From: an uncultured Lachnospiraceae bacterium
GTDB taxonomy: Bacteria > Bacillota_A > Clostridia > Lachnospirales > Lachnospiraceae
Reading direction: 5' to 3'
Assembly: GCA_947302185.1 (NCBI GenBank)
Contig: CAMYVI010000010.1
Location: forward strand, 1 to 21,310
DNA: 21,310 nucleotides
Shown: positions 1,735-17,792 of the stretch, piece by piece
Layout of the letters: every line of letters begins with the position of its first letter
Numbering within the stretch: position 1 is the first letter of the stretch
Position numbers and translations under genes: made by a program
The notes under the pieces: generated by a model
Database searches by the model: none
What the model saw: only the letters and a program-made list of their open reading frames with translations
Told to the model about the DNA's origin: nothing

Positions 1735-2679
1735 ATGCCGAAACAGAAGAAACAGATTGAATTCAGATTTTATAATATGCCCGAAGGAGACTACGTCCTT
1801 CCGAAACTCGGGCAGGGGTGGGAGCAGGAATACGGACTCGGACTTGACCGGATGCTGCATTTTCATAATTATCTGGAAATAGGTTACTGCTATCACGGAA
1901 AAGGAGAACTGGTCATAGAGGACCGCACCTACAATTATACGGATGACTGTTTTTCGATTATTCCGCAGAACCTGCCGCACACGACCATAAGCGCTCCCGG
2001 AAGTATCTGTAAATGGGAGTTCCTGTTCATCGATATTGAGGCATTCATCCGCGATATGTACAGAGATACTCTTCTGTCCTGTGAAGATATTATAAGAATC
2101 GTGAATAAGCGCGGGACGATGAAAACGAAGAAGAATCATCCTGATCTGGCAAGGCTTGTCATAAGCATAATCGAGGAGAGCAGGAGGAAAGATAAGTATT
2201 ACAGACAGAGCATAAAAGGCTACTTGTATGCCCTTGTTGTGGAGATCATGCGTATAGATGAGGAGTGGGAGCAGGCAAAGCACGTCAGCCGTATTAATAA
2301 TCACATAAAAGAGGCTATCAACTATATAAGCGGGAAATATGCCGAAGAAATCAGGATACAGGAACTGGCGGATGCGTGCGGGCTCAGCGAGAGCCACTTT
2401 CGGCGTATTTTTGTGGAATGTATGGGGATGAAGCCCGTAGAGTATATTAATTATGTCAGAATCAGGAAAGCATGTGCTCTTATTCGGAAGGAAGATATTT
2501 CCATGGAGGATGTCTGTTACAGAGTAGGGTATCAGACGCCTTCCACATTTAACAGGAATTTTCGGATCGTCACCGGAATGTCTCCTCGCGAATGGAAAGC
2601 GGAAGACAGTAACCATGCAAATGATTTTCGCATTAACGTGCGTCTCGGGTGGGAGGCGAAAACTCCCGAGGATTCCTGA
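1735..2679 (+). CDS. AraC-family transcriptional regulator of the sugar locus
   Basis: Predicted DNA-binding regulator of 314 aa. The N-terminal part (about residues 8-110) looks like an AraC-type cupin sensor, with HFHNYLEIGYCYHGKGEL at 42-59 and FSIIPQNLPH at 73-82. The C-terminal part (about 188-290) carries two helix-turn-helix motifs: IRIQELADACGLSESHFRRI, then MEDVCYRVGYQTPSTFNRNF and the family-typical GMSPREW. It precedes a sugar ABC transporter and beta-galactosidase, so local control of that operon by a galactoside is inferred. Start choice: ATG 1735 has ACGGA 8 nt upstream; an in-frame TTG at 1729 is possible and adds two residues. Similar AraC regulators sit beside many CUT1 sugar operons. 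Confidence 0.9.
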   Translation: MPKQKKQIEFRFYNMPEGDYVLPKLGQGWEQEYGLGLDRMLHFHNYLEIGYCYHGKGELVIEDRTYNYTDDCFSIIPQNLPHTTISAPGSICKWEFLFIDIEAFIRDMYRDTLLSCEDIIRIVNKRGTMKTKKNHPDLARLVISIIEESRRKDKYYRQSIKGYLYALVVEIMRIDEEWEQAKHVSRINNHIKEAINYISGKYAEEIRIQELADACGLSESHFRRIFVECMGMKPVEYINYVRIRKACALIRKEDISMEDVCYRVGYQTPSTFNRNFRIVTGMSPREWKAEDSNHANDFRINVRLGWEAKTPEDS

Positions 2680-2748
2680 TGAAAAAAGAACAGAACTGCT
2701 TATTTGCTTCTGTCGCGATAAAAGGATCATTTTAGAACAATGACCGGC

Positions 2749-2777
2749 ACAGACACGGAGTCCGAATCTGTTTTTTT
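2749..2777 (+). terminator. Probable intrinsic terminator of the AraC-type gene
   Basis: ACAGA (2749-2753) pairs with TCTGT (2767-2771), and CGG with CCG inside after a 2x2 internal loop. A run of seven T (2771-2777) follows. The stem is short but the T-tract is strong, implying that the binding-protein operon has its own promoter. Confidence 0.5.
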
Positions 2778-2788
2778 GTCGAATAAAA

Positions 2789-2809
2789 TGCACGATTTTG
2801 CACAAATGA
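2789..2809 (+). promoter_or_regulatory. Candidate AraC-type operator with direct repeats
   Basis: TGCAC occurs at 2789-2793 and again at 2799-2803, one helical turn apart, within TGCACGATTTTGCACAAATG. A related word, TCGTACAATTTGCACAAA, recurs at 2884-2901. The site is about 40 bp upstream of a -10 hexamer that lacks a good -35, the usual geometry for an activator-dependent promoter. That the neighbouring AraC-type protein binds here is inference. Confidence 0.45.
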
Positions 2810-2846
2810 GGATTGATAATAACAACAAATACAGTTATGATTAGTA

Positions 2847-2852
2847 TATAAT
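2847..2852 (+). promoter_or_regulatory. -10 element of the sugar transporter operon
   Basis: Perfect TATAAT at 2847-2852. At 17 bp upstream the sequence is AACAAA, a poor -35, which suggests dependence on an activator. A start of transcription near 2859 would give a leader of about 90 nt before the ATG at 2950. Confidence 0.5.
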
Positions 2853-2880
2853 AGCAGTATGTTAAAGATTCATGGGAATA

Positions 2881-2927
2881 AAATCGTACAATTTGCACAA
2901 AAATGAATATGCAAAAATGTGCGATTT
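2881..2927. promoter_or_regulatory. Imperfect long inverted repeat in the operon leader
   Basis: AAATCGTACAATTTGCA (2881-2897) is mirrored by TGCAAAAATGTGCGATTT (2910-2927) with a 12-nt centre. The words resemble the upstream direct-repeat site at 2789-2809. The inverted repeat ends about 10 nt before the AAAGGAGG ribosome binding site (2937-2944). It could be a second operator that causes repression, or an RNA hairpin that gates translation. Confidence 0.5.
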
Positions 2928-2949
2928 CCCGCAAAAAAAGGAGGTCTAT

Positions 2950-4293
2950 ATGAAAAAGAAACTATTATCCGTATTTCTTGTCGGAACTATGGCGGTTGCA
3001 TCTCTGGCAGGATGCGGCGGCTCCGGCGGCTCATCCGCAGGAACTGCCGATACATCCACGGCGGCAGCGGCTCAGGCAGAAGGTGCAGGCGACGGACAGC
3101 ATTCCCTGACTGTTTCCGCATGGGATGCCAATTTTAACATTCCGGCTTTACAGGCAGCTGCTGATGACTACAAAGCCAACGTCGATCCGGATTTCGAGCT
3201 CATCATCAATGAGGTATCGGGTTCTTCCGATATCGAGACAGCTATCACGACAGCGGGAAGTGCAGGCGATTACAGCCAGCTTTCGGACATTGTCCTTTTC
3301 CAGGACCATTATATTCAGAAATATGTAGCAGATTATCCGGATGCATGGACTCCGGTCGAAGGTGCTGATATAGACTGGAGCGATTTCGGCGAGGAAAAAC
3401 TTTCCTACAGCACGATCGACGGAAAGCATTACGGTGTTCCGGTAGATAACGGTACCTGCATCTTCGCATACCGCACGGATATTCTTGAAGAAGCCGGCTA
3501 TACGCTTGCGGATGTCACGGACTGCACATGGGAGAAATGGATCTCCATCGGTGAGGATGTCTACAACAAGACAGGTAAGTACCTCCTCTCCATGGACGGC
3601 GACGGCAACGATCTTCCGTACATTATGCTTCAGGCAGAAGGCACTTCTCAGTTCAAAGACGGCCAGCCGTACATCGCCGAGAACGAGACTATGATTAAAT
3701 GCGTGAATATCATTCTCGAAGCAATGCAGAAGAACGCTCTGTATCTTGCCAACAGCTGGTCCGATTATACAGATCAGACAATTCAGGGCGATATGGTAGC
3801 GGGCGTTATGAACGGAAACTGGATCATTCCGACAATAAAGCAGGTCGCTGACAACTCCGGTAAATGGGAAATCACGAACATCCCGACAATTAACGGCGGC
3901 GGCGGATATGCATCAAACGGCGGTTCTTCTCTGTATATCACGAGCAACTGCGCAAATGCCGATCTTGCCAAGGACTTCCTGGCCAAGACATTCGGCGGTT
4001 CCACTGTTACTTATGACAAGGCTCTGACAGACGGCGGCGTTATCACATGCTGCGTTTCCGCAGGCCAGTCCGATATCTATCAACAGGGCGTAGAGTACTT
4101 CAACGATCAGCCGATTTATACCGACATCGTTGAGATGGGTACTCATGTACCGGTCGTTGAGCAGAGCGATTATCATTATGATTGCCGCAGACTGGTCGCT
4201 GCCGCTATCATCAACGCTGCACAGGGCGGTGCTTCGGTAGAAGATGCATTGAAGGATGCCGAAGAGCAGCTCAGATTCCAGATGGGTCTGTAA
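2950..4293 (+). CDS. Carbohydrate ABC transporter substrate-binding lipoprotein
   Basis: Extracellular, membrane-anchored sugar-binding protein of 447 aa. A lipoprotein signal peptide is clear: MKKK, a hydrophobic stretch, then lipobox LAGC with the lipidated cysteine at residue 22. A Gly/Ser/Ala/Thr-rich linker runs to about residue 50, followed by an extracellular solute-binding family 1 type fold (SAWDANFNIPALQAAADDY near the start of the mature domain, NGNWIIPTIKQVADNSGKW in the C-terminal half). The ATG at 2950 is chosen over an in-frame upstream ATG at 2872 because AAAGGAGG lies 5-6 nt before it and the signal peptide begins exactly there. It is first in an operon with two CUT1-type permeases and a GH2 beta-galactosidase, so a galactoside or galacto-oligosaccharide ligand is inferred. 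It is unusually rich in Asp and Tyr. Confidence 0.93.
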   Translation: MKKKLLSVFLVGTMAVASLAGCGGSGGSSAGTADTSTAAAAQAEGAGDGQHSLTVSAWDANFNIPALQAAADDYKANVDPDFELIINEVSGSSDIETAITTAGSAGDYSQLSDIVLFQDHYIQKYVADYPDAWTPVEGADIDWSDFGEEKLSYSTIDGKHYGVPVDNGTCIFAYRTDILEEAGYTLADVTDCTWEKWISIGEDVYNKTGKYLLSMDGDGNDLPYIMLQAEGTSQFKDGQPYIAENETMIKCVNIILEAMQKNALYLANSWSDYTDQTIQGDMVAGVMNGNWIIPTIKQVADNSGKWEITNIPTINGGGGYASNGGSSLYITSNCANADLAKDFLAKTFGGSTVTYDKALTDGGVITCCVSAGQSDIYQQGVEYFNDQPIYTDIVEMGTHVPVVEQSDYHYDCRRLVAAAIINAAQGGASVEDALKDAEEQLRFQMGL

Positions 4294-4327
4294 TTATTCG
4301 AAGACAATAATTAAGAATAAGAGTCAG

Positions 4328-4355
4328 GCGGGGAACCGGTGCTCCGGTTCCCCGC
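4328..4355 (+). terminator. Intercistronic hairpin, probable attenuator or mRNA stabiliser
   Basis: A perfect 12-bp stem GCGGGGAACCGG / CCGGTTCCCCGC with a TGCT loop is followed only by TTCTTC. It sits between the binding-protein gene and the first permease. Such hairpins are known to keep binding-protein transcripts in excess over permease transcripts; partial readthrough is therefore inferred rather than full termination. Confidence 0.7.
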
Positions 4356-4385
4356 TTCTTCACAGATAAGGAAGGAGGTCAAATC

Positions 4386-5282
4386 TTGAAGAAACAGGGA
4401 AAAAGCGTAACTGCAAAACAGGAGAGGGCAGGATGGATGTTTTTGATTCCTGCAACACTTCTCATCTTCATCATGAGTTTTTATCCGATCATTCAGGCGC
4501 TCCTTACGTCGTTCAAGACCGGATCCAGCGCAAATATGCAGTGGGCGAAGCCGCTCACCTATAACTATACCAGAATGTTCTCAGACAAGCTCTTTATGCG
4601 GTCTGTAACAAATACATTCCTCTATCTCATTATTCAGGTTCCGATCATGCTGATCCTCGCAATCCTGCTTGCTCAGCTGCTGAACAACCGGGATTTGAAA
4701 TTCAGAGGTCTGTTCCGCACCTGTGTGTTCCTCCCGTGCGCAACCGCTCTGGTTTCCTACTCGCTTATTTTTAAGTCTCTGTTCGCGACACAGGGTCTTA
4801 TCAATTCGATTCTCCAGAGCCTCCATCTCACGAGCTCGAATATAAACTTCCTCGGAACTGCATGGACCGCAAAGATGGTCATTATCTTAGCCCTGATCTG
4901 GAGATGGACAGGTTATAACATGGTATTCTATCTCGCAGGCTTACAGGGGATCGAGTATTCAGTCTATGAGGCAGCCAAAATTGACGGTGCTAACGGCTGG
5001 AAGACGTTCTGGCATATTACGGTTCCGCTTCTTCGTCCGACAATCATCATGACATTCATCATGTCCATAAACGGAACCCTTCAGCTGTTCGACGAGTCCG
5101 TCAACCTGACGGCCGGCGGACCTGCCAACTCGACGATTACGATGTCTCATTACATTTATAACAATTCTTTCGGACAGGGCGTTGCGAATTTCGGCTACGC
5201 GTCCGCCATGTCGTTCTTCGTCTTTATCCTTGTCGCAGTACTTGCGATCATAAATCTGAAAGTAGGTGATACACGTGACTGA
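4386..5282 (+). CDS. Sugar ABC transporter permease, MalF/LacF type (CUT1)
   Basis: Integral membrane permease of 298 aa with about six hydrophobic segments (first near residues 17-42). The ATPase-docking EAA loop is visible as EAAKIDGANGWKTFWHITVP at 195-214, matching the CUT1 consensus EAA..DGA....F..I..P. The TTG start at 4386 is supported by AAGGAGG at 4371-4377, 8 nt upstream, and no ATG occurs for the next 17 codons. Pairs with the following permease to form the channel for the sugar delivered by the upstream lipoprotein. Its last codons overlap the next gene. No ATP-binding subunit follows; Firmicutes CUT1 systems often share one ATPase (MsmX/MsmK) encoded elsewhere. Confidence 0.93.
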   Translation: MKKQGKSVTAKQERAGWMFLIPATLLIFIMSFYPIIQALLTSFKTGSSANMQWAKPLTYNYTRMFSDKLFMRSVTNTFLYLIIQVPIMLILAILLAQLLNNRDLKFRGLFRTCVFLPCATALVSYSLIFKSLFATQGLINSILQSLHLTSSNINFLGTAWTAKMVIILALIWRWTGYNMVFYLAGLQGIEYSVYEAAKIDGANGWKTFWHITVPLLRPTIIMTFIMSINGTLQLFDESVNLTAGGPANSTITMSHYIYNNSFGQGVANFGYASAMSFFVFILVAVLAIINLKVGDTRD

Positions 5283-6105
5283 GAAGAAAAACCGTTCTAT
5301 GATACAGAGAAGGCTCATCCCTTCCTACATCTTTCTCACAATCGTATCTTTTATTTCGGTGTTCCCGCTCTACTGGATGGTTACGGCAGCTACCAACAAG
5401 AGTGTTGATGTGGCAAGAGGAAAGATCTTTTTCGGCGGATACCTGATGGAGAACTGGAAGAGACTGCTCCAGCTGCAGGATCTTGGCGGGGCCATGAAGA
5501 ATTCATTCGTTTACGCGATCGTTCAGACAGTGCTTGCGCTGTTCATCTGTTCACTCGCCGGTTACGGTTTTGAGCTTTATCACGATAAGCAGAAAGACCT
5601 TTTGTTCTCGATTCTTCTGCTGGCTATGATGGTACCGGGCGTAGCGACAATGATTCCGCTCTTTAAGATCATGGTCAAGCTTGGCTTCCTGAACAGTGTA
5701 TGGGGCTTCATGCTTCCGGGTATCTCCACACCGTTCCTGATCATGATGTTCCGGCAGAACTCCAGAAACTTCCCGATTGATATCATGGAAGCTGCACGAA
5801 TAGACGGTCTCGGCGAAGTGCAGATTTTCTTCCAGATGTATCTGCCGGTCATGAAGGCAACATATGCGGCAGCGGCGGTTATCACATTTATGAACGCATG
5901 GAATGCTTATCTCTGGCCGAGAGTCATCATGACGGATCAGAAAGCTCAGACGATGCCGATGCTTATCGCTAACCTTGCTGCAGGTTACACGATTGATTAC
6001 GGTGTACTGATGCTGGGCGTTCTTTTCTGCTCGATTCCGACGATGGTCATCTTCTTCATTCTGCAGAAACAGTTCACAGAAGGTATTACCGGTGCGGTCA
6101 AGTAA
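5275..6105 (+). CDS. Sugar ABC transporter permease, MalG/LacG type (CUT1)
   Basis: Second membrane permease, 276 aa from GTG 5275. It has about six membrane segments and an EAA loop, EAARIDGLGEVQIFFQMYLP (about residues 174-193), followed by AFMNAWNAYLWP-like sequence (FMNAWNAYLWPRV) typical of MalG-type permeases. The GTG at 5275 is preferred because TAGGTG (5263-5268) precedes it at proper spacing; an in-frame GTG at 5266 overlaps that ribosome binding site. It overlaps the 3' end of the preceding permease by 8 bp, indicating translational coupling. Together with the upstream lipoprotein and permease it forms one import system. Confidence 0.92.
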   Translation: MTEKKNRSMIQRRLIPSYIFLTIVSFISVFPLYWMVTAATNKSVDVARGKIFFGGYLMENWKRLLQLQDLGGAMKNSFVYAIVQTVLALFICSLAGYGFELYHDKQKDLLFSILLLAMMVPGVATMIPLFKIMVKLGFLNSVWGFMLPGISTPFLIMMFRQNSRNFPIDIMEAARIDGLGEVQIFFQMYLPVMKATYAAAAVITFMNAWNAYLWPRVIMTDQKAQTMPMLIANLAAGYTIDYGVLMLGVLFCSIPTMVIFFILQKQFTEGITGAVK

Positions 6106-6127
6106 TAATCAGGTGTTGTAATGAAAG

Positions 6128-6191
6128 GGGATGCCACAATTCCCTGGCAGTAACACGATGTTTTGCCGGGACGATGGTGGCATTCCTTTTT
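6128..6191 (+). terminator. Branched terminator-like structure between permease and beta-galactosidase genes
   Basis: GGGATGCCAC (6128-6137) pairs with GTGGCATTCC (6177-6186) with one G-U pair, followed by TTTTT (6187-6191). Inside, CCTGGC and GCCGGG form a second stem. A T-tail suggests termination, perhaps partial, since the next gene belongs functionally to the same pathway and no separate strong promoter was seen before it. Confidence 0.65.
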
Positions 6192-6207
6192 CGTTTAAGG
6201 AGATTTT

Positions 6208-9200
6208 ATGTCAGAATTTAATTATGAGATAGTAAGAAACCCCGAAATTTTCCGGGAGAACCGCCTTGATGCTCACTCTGATCACGAGTATTACAGCCAT
6301 GAGAATGGTGTGCCGGCGGGGGTATCTGATTTCAAGGTCAGCCTGAACGGCGTCTGGAAATTCATGTGGGCGAAGAATTATGAGAGCTGCCTTAAAGAAT
6401 TTGCTTCCATGGAGATCGACTGTCACAGCTGGGATACGATTCGGGTCCCCGCCCATATTCAGATGGAAGGGTACGGACATCCGCAGTATGTCAATGTGCA
6501 GTATCCGTGGGACGGATCCGAAGATATAAGACCCGGTCAGATTCCCGAAGAGTTCAATCCTGTTGCAAGCTATGTGAAGTATTTTCGGGTACCGGACAAA
6601 ATGCTCAATCGCCCGATATACATCACATTTGACGGTACGGAAAGCGGGATGGCGCTCTGGCTGAACGGACATTATATCGGATATGCCGAGGACAGCTTTA
6701 CGCCGTCAGAGTTCGAACTGACCCCATACATAAAATATGATGGGGAAAATAAACTGGCTGTGCAGGTATTCCGATTCACTGCGGGCAGCTGGCTGGAAGA
6801 TCAGGATTTTTTCCGCTTCAGCGGCATTTTCAGAGATGTATATCTCTATACAGTTCCGGATGTACACGTCCGGGATCTCAAAATACAAACGATTCTTGAC
6901 GATGATTACCGTGATGCGGATCTCGCGGTTACTCTGAAATCCTGGGGAAAAGGAATGGCAAGACTGACACTTCTTGACGGTCAGACAATCGTTAATGAGG
7001 CGGATGCGGTTCTGACGTCTCTTCCGGACGGGACTGAAGTACATCTGGATGTGGAAAATCCCAGAAAATGGAGCGCGGAGAAACCGGAACTGTATGATCT
7101 GAAAATAGAGGTATTTGATGAGGACGACCGGTTCATGGAGGTCATCGTCGAAAAAGTAGGATTCCGCAGATTTGAACTCATCCGTAATATAATGTGTATT
7201 AACGGCAAACGGATAGTATTCCGCGGCGTTAACAGGCATGAGTTCTCACCGGTGAGCGGAAGATGCGTTCCGGACAGTTATGCGGAGCAGGACGTCATTC
7301 TCATGAAACGGAACAACATAAATGCTATCCGGACGAGCCATTATCCGAATCGTACAGCCCTTTACCGACTATGTGACAAATACGGTCTCTATATGATCGA
7401 CGAGAACAATATGGAAAGTCACGGCGTATTTGACGCCGTTATAAATCACAAAGTGCCTCTTGAGGAGGCAGTTCCGGGTAACAGAAAAGAATATCTGGAG
7501 CTGCTTCTCGACCGGGCAAAGTCAATGTATGAGAGGGATAAGAATCATCCCGCAGTACTCATCTGGTCCTGCGGCAACGAGAGTTTCGGCGGTGAGGTCA
7601 TTTATCGCATGCATGAAGCATTCCACCGGTGGGATCACACGAGACTGGTCCACTATGAAGGAATCAGCGGGGACCGTCGGTTCCCGGATACATCCGATAT
7701 GGAAAGCACCATGTATGCTACGGTAGAGGATATTAAAAAGTGGCTCTCACTGAATCGGGAAAAGCCGTATATAAACTGTGAGTACACGCATGCTATGGGA
7801 AATTCATGCGGCGCTATGCACAAATATACGGATCTGACTGAAAAGGAACCTTTGTTCCAGGGCGGTTTCATCTGGGATTACATAGACCAGGCGATACTTA
7901 CTAAAGACCGTTACGGAAACGAATTTCTCGGATACGGAGGAGATTTCGACGACCGGCCGAATGACGGAAGTTTTTCGGGAAACGGAATCGTGTATGGGAG
8001 ATACAGGGATGCATCGCCCAAGATGCAGGAGGTAAAGTTCAATTATCAGGACATAAAGGTCGCTTTTGAAGGTACGAGCATTCTGGTCAGAAACAACAGC
8101 CTTTTTACTGACACCGGGGAATATGACTGTATCATTACTCTTGAAAAGGAGGGTGAACTGTTAGAAGAGCACCGCGGTCAAATTAGTGTATTACCTCTCA
8201 CAGAGGGCTGTCTGCCGTGTCCTCTTGCCTATCCGGAAGAGGAAGGTGAATATGTGCTCACGGTTTCCTTCCGTCTCAAAGAGGACACAATATGGGCTGA
8301 ACGAGGCCATGAGGTCGCTTACGGCCAGAAAATTATAGGAAAGCGGAAAAATGCCGGTCATATCAAATCCGCTATGAAGGTCGTCGAAGGCTGGAATAAT
8401 ATCGGCGTTAAGGGAGATGACTATGAGATTCTTTTCTCGATTTTGCACGGAGGTCTTGTGTCTTATCGCTACTGCGGCAAAGAGCTTCTGAAAAGGAGGC
8501 CCATGCCTAATTTCTGGAGAGCTTTGACGGAAAATGATAATGCTAACCTGCTTCCGTTCCGTGCGGGAGACTGGAAGATCGCGAGCATGTATGCTACTCA
8601 TAAGTATCATCACGGACGGCGGAGCACGGAGTGTACGTGGGAGCACGGAGAAGACAGTGTGACGGTGACTTACACGTATCACCTCCCCACAAAACCGGCT
8701 AAAGACTGCAGGGTCAGCTATCTGGTACACAGTGACGGTATCGTAGATGTCAGGATGCTGATGGATGCATCGGCCGACGTCGGGGAGCTTCCGGAATTCA
8801 GTATGATGTTCACCCTGGATGCAGATTATGAAAATGTTATGTGGTACGGAAGAGGGCCGGAAGAGACATACGCAGACAGAAAGCATGCCAAAATGGGCGT
8901 GTTCAGGAACAGAGTTTCTGACAATATATCAAAATATCTTGTTCCGCAGGAGTGCGGGAACAAGACAGATGTGCGCTTCGCCGAGGTGACCGATTTACGC
9001 GGCAGGGGCATTCGATTCGAGGGAGATTCCCTTAGCATGTCCGTACTGCCCTATACGCCTCATGAGATAGACAATGCGACACATCCCAATGAGCTTCCGC
9101 CGGTGATCAACACGTATGTGCGTGTCGGACTGACCCAGATGGGCATAGGCGGGGATGATACCTGGGGAGCGCTGACACATCCGGAGTATCGGATTGACAA

Positions 9201-9441: not shown

Positions 9442-10359
9442 TTACTTCAGAAATCCGTTTACTATCTGTTCCTCAGCCTCTTTCTCCGTCAGCCCGAGCG
9501 TCATAAGTTTCATGAGCTGTTCGCCGGCGATCTTTCCGATTGCAGCTTCATGAATCAGGCTTGCGTCGATATTGTTGGCTGTGAGCTGAGGGCTTGCCGT
9601 GACACATCCGTGATCCATAATGATGGAATCACATTCGGAATGCCCCGCACAGGGCGCGTTTCCGTTGATCCGGCTGTCAAAATGCTGGCGGCTGTTCTCC
9701 TTGGCGACGCTTCGACTGATGATATTAGCCGAACATCCTTCGCCGTCCAGGTCGACATTGAAATATGTCTTTGCTTTCTGAACACCTGTTGTGAGGATTT
9801 TTTCCTTGACAACAAGCATTGCACCTGCTTTGAGATCCCCCTCGGTTCTCCGGTCCGTGTCGTCTATGCCGGCGATCTGCGTCGTCTCCATCTCCATATT
9901 TGCTCCCTCGTCGAGGTGTACAATAGTCGTCGGATTCATAACGCGCTTGCTGACTTCATCGCCGGAGCCATAATGCTTTTCAACGTAACGAAGCTTTGAA
10001 TTCTTTCCTATGTAGAACGTGTGAATGCCGTCATGCTGGCTCAGTTCTCCGCCGCAGTTGTGGATTCCGCACCCGGCGATGATAGTCACATCGCAATCTT
10101 CTCCGATGTAGAAATCGTTATATACGAGGTCGGTGAGACCTGTCTGTGTGATGATGACGGGAATATGCACACTCTCTTTTTTTGTTCCGGGTTTGATATA
10201 TATCTCGATACCGGGCTTGTCCTCTTTGGGTACAATTTCGATATTGGCTGTAGAATTGCGTCCGGCAGCGGCGCCGTTTGAACGGATATTATAGGCACCT
10301 ACCGGAAGAGCATCGAGATCGGCGACTTCTTTTAATAGAGTTCTCTGTATTTCATCCAT
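9442..10359 (-). CDS. SufB/SufD-family Fe-S cluster scaffold (SmsB-like)
   Basis: Scaffold subunit for iron-sulfur cluster assembly, acting in the cytoplasm with the SufC ATPase encoded just upstream. At 305 aa it is much shorter than E. coli SufB and consists almost only of the beta-helix core plus the C-terminal helices. Conserved landmarks near the C-terminus: HSECDS (Cys243, aligned by eye with catalytic Cys405 of E. coli SufB), LIHEAAIGKI (His270-Glu271, aligning with SufD His360 / SufB Glu434), and the ending EEQIVNGF. Start: GAGGTGA (10374-10368) lies 8 nt before ATG 10359; the GTG at 10371 overlaps that site and is rejected. The stop of sufC lies within the same ribosome binding site, so translation is coupled. 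Having key residues of both SufB and SufD fits a homodimer in a minimal (SMS-type) system. Confidence 0.9.
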   Translation of the reverse strand: MDEIQRTLLKEVADLDALPVGAYNIRSNGAAAGRNSTANIEIVPKEDKPGIEIYIKPGTKKESVHIPVIITQTGLTDLVYNDFYIGEDCDVTIIAGCGIHNCGGELSQHDGIHTFYIGKNSKLRYVEKHYGSGDEVSKRVMNPTTIVHLDEGANMEMETTQIAGIDDTDRRTEGDLKAGAMLVVKEKILTTGVQKAKTYFNVDLDGEGCSANIISRSVAKENSRQHFDSRINGNAPCAGHSECDSIIMDHGCVTASPQLTANNIDASLIHEAAIGKIAGEQLMKLMTLGLTEKEAEEQIVNGFLK

Positions 10360-13096: not shown

Positions 13097-14230
13097 ATGA
13101 AGGTCGGATGTGTAAAAGAAATCAAGAACAATGAGTTCCGTGTAGGTCTCACGCCTGATAACGTGAAAGCTTATGTGGCAGCAGGGCATGATGTTCTGAT
13201 CGAGAAAGGCGCAGGTTCCGGTTCGGGGTTTACGGACTCGGAGTATGAAGAAGCCGGTGCAAAGATGATAGACGATGCAAAGACGGTGTGGGAAGAGTGT
13301 GAGATGATGGTCAAGGTAAAGGAACCTCTTCCGGATGAATATCCTCTTTTCCATGAAGGGCTGATTCTTTATACGTATCTCCATCTCGCTCCCGATCCGG
13401 AGCAGACCGAAGCGCTCATCAAAGCCAAAGTGACGGGTGTAGCTTATGAGACTCTGAGAGAGAGAGACGGCAGCCTTCCGCTCCTTATTCCCATGAGTCA
13501 GATAGCGGGCCGCCTCAGTATTCAGGAAGGTGCCAAATATCTGGAAAAGAAGTTCGGAGGCGAGGGCATTCTTCTCGCAGGCGTGCCCGGCACACCGAAA
13601 GGCAATGTGGTCATTCTCGGAGCGGGAACAGTCGGTGCAAATGCATGCCGGGCTGCCGTCGGAATCGGTGCAAATGTCACAATTATTGATATAAATCTGA
13701 AGCGCCTCGAGTATCTGGATGAAATATTCGGTGCAAGGATCCAGACGCTTGTATCGACAGATGCTAATATCGAAAAAGCAGTCCGTGATGCTGATCTCGT
13801 TGTAGGCAGTGTTCTTATCCCCGGTTCCGCTACGCCTAAGCTTTTCAAGAGAAAATATCTCCCGGAGATGAAGGACGGAGCGGTATTCGTAGATGTAGCC
13901 ATCGATCAGGGCGGATGCGGTGAATCATCTCATGTCACTACCCACGACGATCCGATCTTTATAGAGGAGGGGGTTGTTCATTATTGCGTAGGCAACATGC
14001 CGGGAGCCGTATCACGTACTTCGACTATAGCTCTTACCAATGCAACGCTGCGCTATGGTCTCCAGATTGCGAATAAGGGCCTTAAAAAGGCATGCGAAGA
14101 TAATGAAGTGATTTATTCGGCTATCAATACGTATGACGGCAAGATCACTTATAAAGGGGTCGCCGAATGCTATCCGGATATTCCTTATGCCGATATCAGA
14201 CAAATACTCCCTCTCAGCGGTCAAATTTAA
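13097..14230 (+). CDS. ald: Alanine dehydrogenase
   Basis: NAD-dependent oxidative deamination of L-alanine to pyruvate and ammonia, or the reverse; a cytoplasmic enzyme of 377 aa. Visible landmarks: N-terminal VGCVKEIKNNEFRVGLTP at 3-20, pyruvate-binding Lys75 in KVKEP and His96 in LHLAPD, the Rossmann loop VILGAGTVGANA at 172-183 followed by acidic D198, and the catalytic Asp270 in FVDVAIDQGGC. GAGGAGGA precedes the ATG. It ends convergently with tcdA, the two stop codons overlapping by 4 bp. In anaerobes this enzyme links alanine, pyruvate and NADH pools; no neighbour here belongs to that pathway. Confidence 0.96.
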   Translation: MKVGCVKEIKNNEFRVGLTPDNVKAYVAAGHDVLIEKGAGSGSGFTDSEYEEAGAKMIDDAKTVWEECEMMVKVKEPLPDEYPLFHEGLILYTYLHLAPDPEQTEALIKAKVTGVAYETLRERDGSLPLLIPMSQIAGRLSIQEGAKYLEKKFGGEGILLAGVPGTPKGNVVILGAGTVGANACRAAVGIGANVTIIDINLKRLEYLDEIFGARIQTLVSTDANIEKAVRDADLVVGSVLIPGSATPKLFKRKYLPEMKDGAVFVDVAIDQGGCGESSHVTTHDDPIFIEEGVVHYCVGNMPGAVSRTSTIALTNATLRYGLQIANKGLKKACEDNEVIYSAINTYDGKITYKGVAECYPDIPYADIRQILPLSGQI

Positions 14231-14946
14231 TTTCGGTCATTTAAAGAAATAAGTTCCTTGACGACCTCCGAAGCAATGAGGAGGCCGGCTGTGCTCGGAA
14301 CAAATGAAGTTGATCCGGGAACACTTCTTCGAGGGCCGTCCGTCATTTTGACGAGCGGCTCTTTTGGCTGTTCTCTCGAATAGACAACTTTAAGCTTCCT
14401 GATACCTCTTTTCTTAAGCTCTCTTCTCATGACCCTGGCAAGCGGACAGACTGATGTCTCATAGATGTCTGCCACCGTGAGTTCTGACGGATTCATTTTG
14501 TTTCCGGTCCCCATACTTGAAATAACAGGTACATGTGCTTCCTCAGCCTGCATAATGATCTGAATTTTTCCGGTAACGGTATCGATAGCATCCACAACAT
14601 AATCATATTGACTGAAATCGAAGCGGTCTGCAGTTTCCGGCAGATAGAAACACCTGTGTTTTGTGACCCGTATGTCAGGGTTGATATCCAACATCCTTTT
14701 TTCGGCAACATCCACTTTATACATTCCGATTGTAGACGTTGTGGCTATGATCTGACGGTTAATGTTGGACATGCAGACGGTATCATTGTCTACGACGTCA
14801 ATAGCCCCTACGCCGCTTCTGGTAAGAGCTTCGACTACGTAGCCTCCGACTCCTCCGACGCCGAAGATTATTACATGTGAATTTCTGAGCGTTTCAATTG
14901 CGCTTCTTCCGATGAGAAGCTCGGTTCTTGAGAATCTTTCGGACAT
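14227..14946 (-). CDS. tcdA: tRNA threonylcarbamoyladenosine dehydratase (TcdA/CsdL)
   Basis: E1-like enzyme that uses ATP to cyclise t6A to ct6A at tRNA position 37; 239 aa, soluble. Motifs: RFSRTELLIG at 4-13, nucleotide loop FGVGGVGGYV at 28-37, DND at 53-55, NINRQ at 61-65 (E1-type arginine finger region), Lys77, and DAIDT at 119-123. The C-terminal SVCPLARVMRRELKKRGI and GSTSFVPSTAGLLIAS segments are typical of TcdA rather than MoeB or ThiF. The ATG at 14946 is chosen because AAAGG lies 8 nt upstream; the in-frame TTG at 15009 lacks a ribosome binding site and adds residues not expected in the family. It overlaps the ald stop by 4 bp with no terminator between them. Confidence 0.92.
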   Translation of the reverse strand: MSERFSRTELLIGRSAIETLRNSHVIIFGVGGVGGYVVEALTRSGVGAIDVVDNDTVCMSNINRQIIATTSTIGMYKVDVAEKRMLDINPDIRVTKHRCFYLPETADRFDFSQYDYVVDAIDTVTGKIQIIMQAEEAHVPVISSMGTGNKMNPSELTVADIYETSVCPLARVMRRELKKRGIRKLKVVYSREQPKEPLVKMTDGPRRSVPGSTSFVPSTAGLLIASEVVKELISLNDRN

Positions 14947-15088
14947 ATTTTCTACCTTTATAACACTTGAGCGGAATATGACAACAGCTTCTGTCTGTGG
15001 TGAACTCAAATTTATCTTGGGACGTGAATTGAGTTATCATGCCGGGTCGGTCGGATGACGACCGGGTGACCACCTTTGATAAATTCTA

Positions 15089-15097
15089 AGTATAGCA
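15089..15097 (-). promoter_or_regulatory. Extended -10 promoter of tcdA
   Basis: On the - strand TGCTATACT (15097-15089) fits an extended -10 (TGn-TATACT). The -35 region is weak. Transcription would start about 135 nt before the tcdA ATG. Confidence 0.45.
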
Positions 15098-15104
15098 CAG
15101 ATAC

Positions 15105-15132
15105 TTGCCTGCCGAACACGTAATATGATAAT
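15105..15132 (+). promoter_or_regulatory. Promoter of the EamA/DMT transporter gene
   Basis: TTGCCT (15105-15110), a 16-bp spacer and GATAAT (15127-15132), facing away from the tcdA promoter. Confidence 0.5.
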
Positions 15133-15191
15133 ATGGGTAGCGTTTCGGAATAGGTTTGGAATAGGGAAGCATCTGAAGAGGAAACAACAGA

Positions 15192-16094
15192 ATGGGAAAG
15201 ACATTGACTAAAAAAGAGGAACTCACGCACACGCTCATGCTTATCCTCTGTTCCGTAATCTGGGGAAGCGCTTTTGTTGCCCAAAGTATAGGAGCTGATT
15301 TCGTAGGGCCTTTTACATACCTGGCGCTCAGGAACTGGGTCGCTGTGTTTTTTTTGCTGCCTGTTATACTTGTCCGCGACCGCATGCACATTCGTTCAGA
15401 GGGGGAATCTACTGCTCCGAAGAACAGATACCAATGGAAAATTCTGCTTCTCGGCGGGATATTCTGCGGGCTTTTTCTATTTCTGGCAAGCAGTTCTCAG
15501 CAAGCGGGCATATCTGTTACGACGACAGCTAAAGCCGGATTCATAACTGCTCAGTATGTCATCATTGTTCCGCTTATTTCCTTATTTTTCGGAAAACGGG
15601 TCAAATCGAAAATCTGGGGATGTGTCATGCTCAGTGTGGCCGGATTGTATTTGCTCTGTATAAACGGGCCTCTTGAACTCGGTGCGGGAGACTCTCTGAT
15701 GCTTCTTTGCGCCTTTCTGTTTGCCCTGCAGATCATGTGTGTGGATTATTTTTCTCCCATGACGGATCCGGTCAGATTATCAGTCGCTGAGTTTTTGGTG
15801 ACAGCGGTGCTTGCAACAATCTGCATGCTGGCATTTGAACAGATTACGGTAGAAAGTATCAGAGCAGCAGCCGGATCGATTATATATGCGGGTGTGATGA
15901 GCAGTGGGGTAGCGTACACTCTGCAGATTGTGGGACAGCGGAACCTTAATCCGACTGTAGCATCTCTTTCAATGAGCCTTGAGAGTGTATTTTCTGCTAT
16001 ATGCGGCTGGATTATCCTGGGCCAGGCATTGAATATAAAAGAAATCACCGGATGCGGGCTCATGTTCACTGCAATTGTCCTGTCACAGATTTGA
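15192..16094 (+). CDS. EamA/DMT-superfamily transporter
   Basis: Inner-membrane transporter of 300 aa with about ten hydrophobic helices in two EamA repeats, the normal DMT layout. The N-terminal repeat opens with HTLMLILCSVIWGSAFVAQS (residues 12-31) and the second with LMLLCAFLFALQIMCVDYF; the C-terminal SLSMSLESVFSAICGWIILG segment is the usual EamA ending, with the conserved P-T/S-A-S-L-S-M-SLE pattern. Substrate cannot be told from sequence; relatives export amino acids or metabolites. AGAGGAAA lies 8 nt before the ATG. It is transcribed divergently from tcdA and appears monocistronic. No terminator was recognised after it. Confidence 0.88.
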   Translation: MGKTLTKKEELTHTLMLILCSVIWGSAFVAQSIGADFVGPFTYLALRNWVAVFFLLPVILVRDRMHIRSEGESTAPKNRYQWKILLLGGIFCGLFLFLASSSQQAGISVTTTAKAGFITAQYVIIVPLISLFFGKRVKSKIWGCVMLSVAGLYLLCINGPLELGAGDSLMLLCAFLFALQIMCVDYFSPMTDPVRLSVAEFLVTAVLATICMLAFEQITVESIRAAAGSIIYAGVMSSGVAYTLQIVGQRNLNPTVASLSMSLESVFSAICGWIILGQALNIKEITGCGLMFTAIVLSQI

Positions 16095-16296: not shown

Positions 16297-16325
16297 TTGA
16301 CTTTTATAACGAATGGACGTATACT
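16297..16325 (+). promoter_or_regulatory. Near-consensus promoter of the first precursor-peptide gene
   Basis: TTGACT (16297-16302), exactly 17 bp, TATACT (16320-16325). This is the best housekeeping-type promoter in the window. Transcription would start near 16332, 39 nt before the ATG at 16371. Confidence 0.75.
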
Positions 16326-16370: not shown

Positions 16371-16490
16371 ATGGAAAGATGGACAGCTCCGGAAATCCAT
16401 GAACTCAATGTGCAGGAGACAGCTGGCGGCACATCTCAGATGCCAATCGAGTGCGAGTGCGGATGCCATTGCAAAGGCGGTGCTTCATAA
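16371..16490 (+). CDS. RiPP-type precursor peptide 1, lasso-like leader, Cys-rich core (39 aa)
   Basis: Short gene with strong signals: AAAAAGGAGG 8 nt before the ATG, a near-consensus promoter, and a terminator after it. The leader reads MERWTAPEIHELNVQETAGG; the remainder is TSQMPIECECGCHCKGGAS. The leader's W-x2-P-x-I-x2-L-x-V-x2-T-x-G spacing equals that known for paeninodin-type lasso precursors, where Thr is at -2 of the core. If cleavage follows T-A, the core starts G-G and Glu is at position 9, a usual macrolactam acceptor. The tail has four alternating cysteines (CECGCHC), unusual for a lasso peptide, so a metal-binding, disulfide or radical-SAM thioether product is an alternative. 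The leader is shared with the peptide at 16667-16777. No maturation enzyme is adjacent. Confidence 0.8.
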   Translation: MERWTAPEIHELNVQETAGGTSQMPIECECGCHCKGGAS

Positions 16491-16503
16491 TAGCCGTTAG
16501 AAG

Positions 16504-16536
16504 GAAGAACGCTTAAATAACATGTTCTTCTTTTCT
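16504..16536 (+). terminator. Terminator after precursor peptide 1
   Basis: GAAGAAC (16504-16510) pairs with GTTCTTC (16524-16530), 13-nt loop, followed by TTTTCT. It lies 13 nt past the stop codon. Confidence 0.6.
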
Positions 16537-16666
16537 GTATGCAATTCCCACGAAGGGATAGGGGAGCTTGCATTACAGAGAGGGCATTCTCGGGAGTCTT
16601 CAGAACACTTGAGAACGGCCTGATTGGTTAATGAGAAACGTACTTGTCCCTAAGGAGGAAGTGGTT

Positions 16667-16777
16667 ATGGAAAGATGGGAAATCCCGACAATTCAGGAAA
16701 TGAATGTTGAGGAGACTGCAGGCGGTCATTATGTAGATGTGATCGAGAATGAATGTGCTCATGCCGAATTTTCATAA
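16667..16777 (+). CDS. RiPP-type precursor peptide 2, same leader, different core (36 aa)
   Basis: AAGGAGG (16652-16658) lies 8 nt before the ATG. The leader MERWEIPTIQEMNVEETAGG matches that of the peptide at 16371 at 13 of 20 positions, including Trp4, Pro7, Ile9, Val14, Thr17 and the final Gly-Gly; the C-terminal part HYVDVIENECAHAEFS is unrelated to the first core. With cleavage after T-A the core again carries Glu at position 9 (Asp at 6 is also present), as expected for a lasso ring acceptor. One cysteine only. No good promoter was found in the 16537-16650 gap, so expression may depend on readthrough or an unrecognised promoter. Two paralogous genes with fixed leader and free core are the classic picture of RiPP precursor duplication. 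Confidence 0.78.
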   Translation: MERWEIPTIQEMNVEETAGGHYVDVIENECAHAEFS

Positions 16778-16806
16778 TGACTAATCGCCGTGGTTACGAA
16801 TCTTTG

Positions 16807-16835
16807 GGTATTGGTTTATGCCAATACCTTTTTTT
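16807..16835 (+). terminator. Strong terminator after precursor peptide 2
   Basis: GGTATTGG / CCAATACC perfect 8-bp stem, loop TTTATG, then seven T (16829-16835). It lies 29 nt past the stop codon. Confidence 0.88.
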
Positions 16836-16875
16836 ATTCTTCATCGTGAGTACAATCTCGTGATGAAGAATAAAA
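16832..16875. repeat. Dispersed palindromic repeat, copy B
   Basis: A 19-nt arm (16832-16850) pairs with 16857-16875 across a TACAAT loop, perfect except for two G-U pairs (GT opposite GT). The core tcatcgtgagtac..atc..gatgaagaa is shared with copy A at 9326-9360. It overlaps the T-tract of the preceding terminator. Confidence 0.8.
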
Positions 16876-16949: not shown

Positions 16950-17792
16950 ATGAAAATAGTAAATTTGATAGAAAATACAGAGGGCAAAGCGGGATGCTTA
17001 CATGCGCACGGTTTGTCTTTTTATGTGGAGATATCAAAACACAAATTGCTGTTGGATCTCGGACCTTCGGATGAGACTCTCAAAAATGCCATTAGACTCG
17101 GAATCGATCTCACGCAAGTTGATACAGTCATCCTGAGTCACGGTCATTATGATCACTCGGGCGGAATCATGGCTTTTTCAAAGCTCAATCCCGATGCTGT
17201 TATTTATATGCAGCAGTCGGCAAAGGATGATTATTATGCCGATGACGGAGAGAATGCAGGTGAGAACCGTTACAGGTATATCGGCATAGATAAGGATATT
17301 GCGAGCCTGCCGCAGGTTAAAATGATATGCGGCGATTTCCGGATCGACGAGGAGATCGAGCTGTTTACAGTGAAGGAAAGATCGCATAAGATTCCGTTTG
17401 CCGATAAAAGGCTTCTGGTAAAAGAAAACGGAGAGTATGTGAGGGATGATTTCGGGCACGAGCAGTATCTTGTGGTCAGTGACGGAAACAGAAAAATCCT
17501 CATGTCCGGATGTGCTCATAACGGGATCTTAAGCATTCTGGACTCTTACAAGGAGAAGTACGATTCTTATCCTGATGCAGTGATCAGCGGTTTTCATCTG
17601 ATGAAGAAGATGAAATATACAGATGAAGAACTGCGGGAAATCCTGGATATCGGCAGGGAATTAAAAAAGTATCCGATAATGTTCTATACCTGTCATTGTA
17701 CGGGAGAACCGGCGTATAAAATCATGAAAATCACAATGGGAGAACAGCTTCGGTATGTCCATTCGGGTGATGAAGTGCTAATACAAAAATGA
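16950..17792 (+). CDS. Metallo-beta-lactamase-fold hydrolase (COG1237 type)
   Basis: Soluble 280-aa protein of the MBL superfamily. The metal site motif SHGHYDHSGG gives His64, His66, Asp68 and His69; further likely ligands are His190 in SGCAHNG and His216 in ISGFHL, with FYTCHCTGEPAY near the end (His249). The KIVNLIENTEG opening and the GCAHNG and TCHCTG blocks are those of the COG1237 group, whose archaeal members are annotated as dihydropterin ribofuranosylaminobenzene phosphate synthases; the true substrate in Clostridia is unknown. The ATG at 16950 has AAAGGAGA 9 nt upstream; the in-frame ATG at 16908 has no ribosome binding site. It follows two strong hairpins after the precursor-peptide genes, so it is probably a separate transcription unit. 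Confidence 0.9.
   Translation: MKIVNLIENTEGKAGCLHAHGLSFYVEISKHKLLLDLGPSDETLKNAIRLGIDLTQVDTVILSHGHYDHSGGIMAFSKLNPDAVIYMQQSAKDDYYADDGENAGENRYRYIGIDKDIASLPQVKMICGDFRIDEEIELFTVKERSHKIPFADKRLLVKENGEYVRDDFGHEQYLVVSDGNRKILMSGCAHNGILSILDSYKEKYDSYPDAVISGFHLMKKMKYTDEELREILDIGRELKKYPIMFYTCHCTGEPAYKIMKITMGEQLRYVHSGDEVLIQK

Follow-up and report, generated by a model that had tools for sequence, protein, structure and literature searches.

The window analysed here, the whole 21,310-nucleotide stretch of contig CAMYVI010000010.1 (GenBank assembly GCA_947302185.1) from an uncultured Lachnospiraceae bacterium, harbors two short genes, pA and pB, which very likely encode lasso-type precursors of ribosomally synthesized and post-translationally modified peptides (RiPPs), likely matured in trans. 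Judged from comparative sequence data, they probably form a pair of precursors for phosphorylated lasso peptides of paeninodin-like type, with genes lying apart from the biosynthetic operon. The elements of the locus are as follows.

16297..16325, + strand: likely promoter of pA (TTGACT, 17 bp, TATACT), from a pattern scan and an alignment of five loci
16371..16490, + strand: pA, putative lasso-type precursor of 39 aa with an AGGAGG ribosome site, from its open reading frame (ORF), homologues and the leader profile
16667..16777, + strand: pB, putative second lasso-type precursor of 36 aa with an AAGGAGG ribosome site, from its ORF, homologues and the leader profile
16806..16839, + strand: intrinsic-terminator-like stem and T run 3' of pB, one found against 0.4 expected

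Both ORFs were observed, with strong ribosome binding sites, where the first-pass annotation had placed them, and an in-frame ATG upstream at 16631 would extend pB to 48 aa. They are more than chance ORFs, because homologues exist (three for pA at 82–95% identity and three for pB, besides the window copy, at 83–88%, in protein searches) and the leader profile matches relatives; on this evidence pA and pB are real genes. The promoter scan of pA is weak when taken alone (three promoter-like sites against 2.4 expected), and both hexamers and the 17-bp spacer are conserved at five of the five aligned loci, the spacers being counted by eye. With the threonine of the leader set at position −3, pA would divide into the leader MERWTAPEIHELNVQETAG and the core GTSQMPIECECGCHCKGGAS, and pB into the leader MERWEIPTIQEMNVEETAG and the core GHYVDVIENECAHAEFS. 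The leaders have W4, P7, I9, T17 and G20 in common, E27 is also common to both peptides, and 14 of the 20 leader columns are invariant, one more than the 13 counted at first; 3' of the GG, 19 residues follow in pA and 16 in pB. Both peptides exhibit the [Y/W]xxPx[hydrophobic] leader motif bound by the RiPP recognition element (RRE), a threonine near the leader end, a glycine with Asp/Glu 7–8 residues further on, and a C-terminal serine.

Relatives were traced through the window's aldehyde-dehydrogenase-family protein, which we take to be ProA-like and whose 85% partial match in genome G215 led to a genus of 42 genomes. The pair is present in four of the 42 (G417, G418, G436 and G441), and pA and pB are co-encoded at all five loci, the window included. 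The pair is flanked by EamA and FKBP genes in G436 and G417, as in the window, and adjoins an EamA gene in G418 and G441, as judged from the printed ORFs; an FKBP search matched all 42 genus genomes, with an FKBP gene at the site supported in G436, G417 and G410 only. The ribosome site and the start position are kept at the five aligned loci (the pB start being TTG, not ATG, in G418 and G441), as are the Glu, the four pA cysteines, the pB cysteine and the C-terminal Ser of the cores. A leader-only profile, built partly from pA/pB-type peptides themselves, recovered 12 peptides in five of the 42 genomes at E ≤ 2e-5, with the next match at 0.088, and the leader-profile search revealed no other peptide with the pA/pB leader at E ≤ 0.2 in the pair-bearing genomes. 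In G410 (L078, contig 176; L079, contig 142) two leader peptides lie near a cyclase, and a further short leader ORF (VYSAFKESV after GG) has no ATG before the leader; one leader peptide of that genome adjoins an FKBP gene on a contig that also carries a CLC gene. The window's metallo-beta-lactamase-fold protein, used as a contig query, returned 19 loci, some of them short, with a best identity of 73% and no pA/pB-like ORF by motif; a search of six genomes gave no match, a search of that genus gave none either (0 of 6), and neither of the two genomes searched in the genus of G283 has one. On viral contigs, a degenerate pA pattern gave 0 matches, and pattern A2 gave 68 stretches, none of which was confirmed.

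All four pair-bearing genomes encode a lasso operon with B1, B2 and C, comprising a PqqD-like RRE protein (B1), a Transglut_core3 protein (B2), an Asn-synthetase-like cyclase (C), an HprK-like kinase, an NTP-transferase and an exporter. The operon stands on a different contig from the pair, with a separation of no less than about 137 kb in the best assembly, and harbors no recognisable precursor gene. Searches by tblastn with the lasso HprK, B1, B2, NTase and C of G436, and also the B1, B2 and C of G418, with ABC rows left out, gave no row in the 21.3-kb window or at the pair loci L072–L077 and L080, and a Pfam scan of the 15 other window proteins likewise revealed no lasso enzyme, confirming the absence claimed for the surroundings of the pair; the usual lasso arrangement, in which the precursor adjoins its enzymes (not a strictly defining feature), is not seen here. 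Since the same genomes have enzymes without a recognisable precursor and precursors without enzymes, the two appear as complementary orphans of a split lasso system, and the conserved separation of the precursors from an operon lacking a recognisable one is the unusual point. Prochlorosins are likewise RiPP precursors scattered from their enzyme, although they are lanthipeptides and not lasso peptides. The occurrence of B1, B2 and C elsewhere in four of four pair-bearing relatives agrees with the earlier proposal that maturation acts in trans or that the enzymes lie outside the stretch, and the RRE proteins found there remove one ground on which it had been open to rejection, namely a lack of RRE-containing maturation proteins in the genome or its relatives. 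The Gly and Phe that have been reported for paeninodin RREs reading Trp are retained in the B1 proteins, and the Hpr_kinase_C match of the G436 operon stands at 38.6 bits against 33.3; a pattern of our own for the conserved kinase residues matched 0 of 5, and our own B2 pattern missed G425. A C-terminal Ser together with an HprK-like kinase, the PadeK-type combination predicted here, is the paeninodin pattern in the available part of PMC9266682.

The operon at L095 lies among LicD, YfhO and, by eye, glycosyltransferase-like genes (1854–6323 and 13761–15986), neighbours hinting at sugar or phospho-sugar tailoring; a VanZ-family membrane protein (L095, 10909–11715; Pfam) lies between its NTP-transferase and cyclase, with counterparts in L096, L097 and L098 (by eye). 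A second Transglut_core3 match in G436 (C59, L099) was rejected, having no lasso neighbours by eye. Operons of the same type without a recognisable precursor were also observed in G425 (L164, contig 116) and, in part, in G415 (L165, contig 253), where incomplete assembly or loss of the pair may account for the lack of a precursor.

The leader family was searched across 397 genomes of Lachnospiraceae, of which 103 had a match at E ≤ 1, and 10 of the 30 returned loci were inspected. At these ten loci a true leader opens a small ORF in at least eight of the 397 genomes, and the precursors of the eight adjoin cyclase-, B1-, B2- or kinase-like genes; B2 occurs in six of the eight against 11 of the 397 overall, and in the two without it (G364 and G291) a cyclase adjoins the precursor. 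As the leader adjoins or co-occurs with lasso enzymes elsewhere in the Lachnospiraceae, the WxxPx(I/V)...T-A-x-G leader common to pA and pB is very probably a lasso leader, in line with the lasso-type or RRE-recognised class first suggested for them. A second-contig leader match was found in three of the eight genomes (G102 C29, G386 C13 and G121 C87), the one on G386 C13 with kinase and weak cyclase rows nearby. The leader-bearing peptide on contig 29 of G102 (L053, about 9533–9727, + strand), ETAVPSWSHYEKDG, is a possible second unlinked precursor in another genome: no row for a lasso enzyme falls within 19.5 kb of it, and the lasso genes of G102 are on contig 2.

Leader position 4 is W in 18 of 18 aligned rows, which bears on the explanation that pA and pB are substrates of B1, the kinase and the NTP-transferase alone, yielding linear phosphorylated peptides (LPP-like) that stay uncyclised. 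According to the available part of PMC13381572, LPP precursors have in common a leader of [Y/W]xxP type together with the kinase and the NTP-transferase, and polysaccharide loci often place LPP genes close to lasso genes. Their leaders, however, are YxxP (YxxP...FETxxS), whereas the pA/pB family has W; B2 and C stand in the same operon as B1 and the kinase, no signal-peptidase-like (SipW-like) match was found among the 10 operon-region proteins scanned, and the Gly/Glu ring positions are near-invariant, so that uncyclised products are held to be distinctly unlikely.

The core survey covered the best 120 of 156 leader matches and yielded 86 cores that differ in the 12 residues following Thr. 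The family Thr lies at W+13, with Gly at T+3 in 84 of the 86 and Glu at T+10 likewise in 84; a C-terminal Ser ends 71 of the 86 cores against 65 of 919 long ORFs. Sequences of this kind had served as seeds for the profile, so that the core fractions are biased and inflated, a point against the lasso reading. T+2 is Asn in 47 cores, Gly in 23 and Asp in 14 (together 84), so GG is not a family rule. This is one of the points that make double-glycine (C39-type) bacteriocins, or some other small peptide independent of an RRE, scarcely credible despite the GG that ends both leaders; the Pfam matches of the G436 operon's ABC protein include no C39 peptidase domain, neither a C39 exporter nor GG cleavage was recognised, and the leader co-occurs with lasso enzymes.

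The first-pass annotation had proposed a Gly1–Glu9 ring with Thr(−2); this register may need amending, since Gly1–Glu8 with Thr(−3) fits at least equally. The Gly1–Glu8 register keeps Gly as residue 1, whereas Gly1–Glu9 makes residue 1 Asn/Asp in most of the 86 cores. In the portions available, PMC7533575 predicts the Thr(−3), Gly1 register for rumen lasso precursors, and PMC10368454 places Thr at the penultimate leader position in all earlier reported precursors. In our judgement the predicted Gly1–Glu8 ring with Thr(−3) is somewhat favoured over Gly1–Glu9 with Thr(−2).

Differential conservation was observed along the cores: at the five loci pA keeps MPIEC(E/Y)CGC(H/P)C(K/R)GG(A/Q)S, with variation just 3' of the ring Gly, and pB keeps E(N/D)(E/Y)CAH; among 12 pA-like homologues, selected by an EC(E/Y)CGC pattern and partly redundant, two lack the fourth Cys and one has MQIE. 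Conservation of the whole peptide across species, named beforehand as a sign of a non-RiPP protein, was not observed: although close relatives do share the cores too, what the wider family has in common is mainly the leader, with the Gly, the Glu and mostly the C-terminal Ser. Pairwise differences (synonymous base differences/changed codons, as raw pairwise totals and not dN/dS) amount to 22/35 in the leader, 10/15 in the ring and 31/22 in the tail of pA, and to 49/27, 33/19 and 15/26 in those of pB. In the pA leader (35 vs 22) and the pB tail (26 vs 15) there are more changed codons than synonymous differences, as might be expected of relict precursors, genes that drift has left in place since the relocation or decay of the system, with nothing maturing them; the pair's separation from its enzymes, and the enzymes without a detected leader peptide in G425 and G415, would fit the same account. 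Relicts are nevertheless very unlikely, with the ribosome site, start position, promoter hexamers, Glu, Cys and C-terminal Ser all kept in five loci.

In the split lasso system favoured here, the operon enzymes would act on the pA and pB peptides: B1, a discrete RRE protein expressed from the distant operon, would bind the WxxPxI leader, the HprK-like kinase would phosphorylate the C-terminal Ser, B2 would cleave off the leader, and cyclase C would link the N-terminal Gly of the core to the conserved Glu, which lies seven residues further along. The ring would be Gly1–Glu8, or Gly1–Glu9 if the leader is cut one position earlier. The phosphate may be extended by the NTP-transferase, and the ABC protein would export the product.

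Several points weigh against this reading. The genomes are drafts of unstated completeness, so contig mis-binning is possible; in G417 the pair and the operon could be as little as 5.6 kb apart if their contigs abut; the operon may possess a precursor with an unrelated leader; and the presence of the operon in the window's own genome is inferred from relatives. The cyclase model gives 126 bits against a cut-off of 525, and the Trp-contact residues E75 and I44 of PbaB1 are not kept in most aligned B1s. G415 and G425 have lasso machinery without a leader peptide at E ≤ 1, five of the 11 B2-bearing genomes in the 397-genome sample have no confirmed leader, G410 carries leader peptides without a B2 over the cut-off, and three weak further leader matches (E 0.21–0.93) occur in G417, G418 and G441. 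The NCBIfam paeninodin precursor model NF033524 gives pA and pB 12.4 and 12.3 bits against a cut-off of 27, so they are not filed under it and membership of that model is not claimed; the sub-threshold match still points the same way as the lasso leader.

The 15 other window proteins belong to ordinary families (Pfam scan): an AraC regulator, sugar-type ABC transporter parts, a GH2 beta-galactosidase, a SufBD-core protein and an ABC ATPase; MgtE, alanine dehydrogenase, a ThiF-family protein, the EamA transporter and the aldehyde-dehydrogenase-family protein; and the metallo-beta-lactamase-fold protein, an FKBP lipoprotein-like protein and a CLC channel. In the window, pB and the FKBP gene are separated by the metallo-beta-lactamase-fold gene (16950–17789, + strand), and no such ORF lies there in G436 or G417, indicating local insertion or loss.

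Compared with known systems, as far as the available parts of the sources go, the rumen Butyrivibrio/Lachnospiraceae lasso precursors of PMC7533575 resemble pA and pB in the W..P leader, conserved Thr, Thr(−3) prediction, Gly+1 with an acidic residue at 8–9, Ser in the C-terminal region, and associated HPr-type kinase and nucleotidyltransferase; they differ in the acceptor, predicted as Asp there and Glu here, and were sought around enzymes, whereas pA and pB are unlinked from them. Paeninodin and pseudomycoidin (PMC9266682, PMC13381572) share the Trp leader motif, discrete B1/B2, the HprK-like kinase on a C-terminal Ser and the NTP-transferase, but their cores are unrelated, and pA differs in its CxCxCxC tail, the pair in its place outside the cluster and its miss of the NF033524 cut-off. 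In citrulassin (PMC12971885) an essential pathway part is likewise encoded elsewhere in the genome; there it is a tailoring deiminase, here the precursors. No report of lasso precursors unlinked from their enzymes was recognised in the open-licence literature searched, including the available parts of PMC4289311, PMC7280977 and PMC12971885.

It is a speculative idea that pA and pB belong to a dedicated two-component split system, both being made in trans and their expression not being coupled to that of the polysaccharide-type operon which produces them. The CxCxCxC tail of pA, with His or Pro in the gaps, would then coordinate a metal or engage in disulphides, conceivably with the single conserved Cys of pB, to give a heterodimeric or metal-loaded lasso pair. 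Lasso genome mining usually seeks the precursor beside the enzymes, and since operons without a recognisable precursor and enzyme-less precursors occur in the same genomes, such split pathways would be scored as incomplete and their peptides missed. The pair and the operon represent a directly testable case for lasso maturation in trans and for the way in which an RRE locates a leader that is not linked to it, and a split system might explain some of the precursor-less lasso clusters of rumen bacteria.
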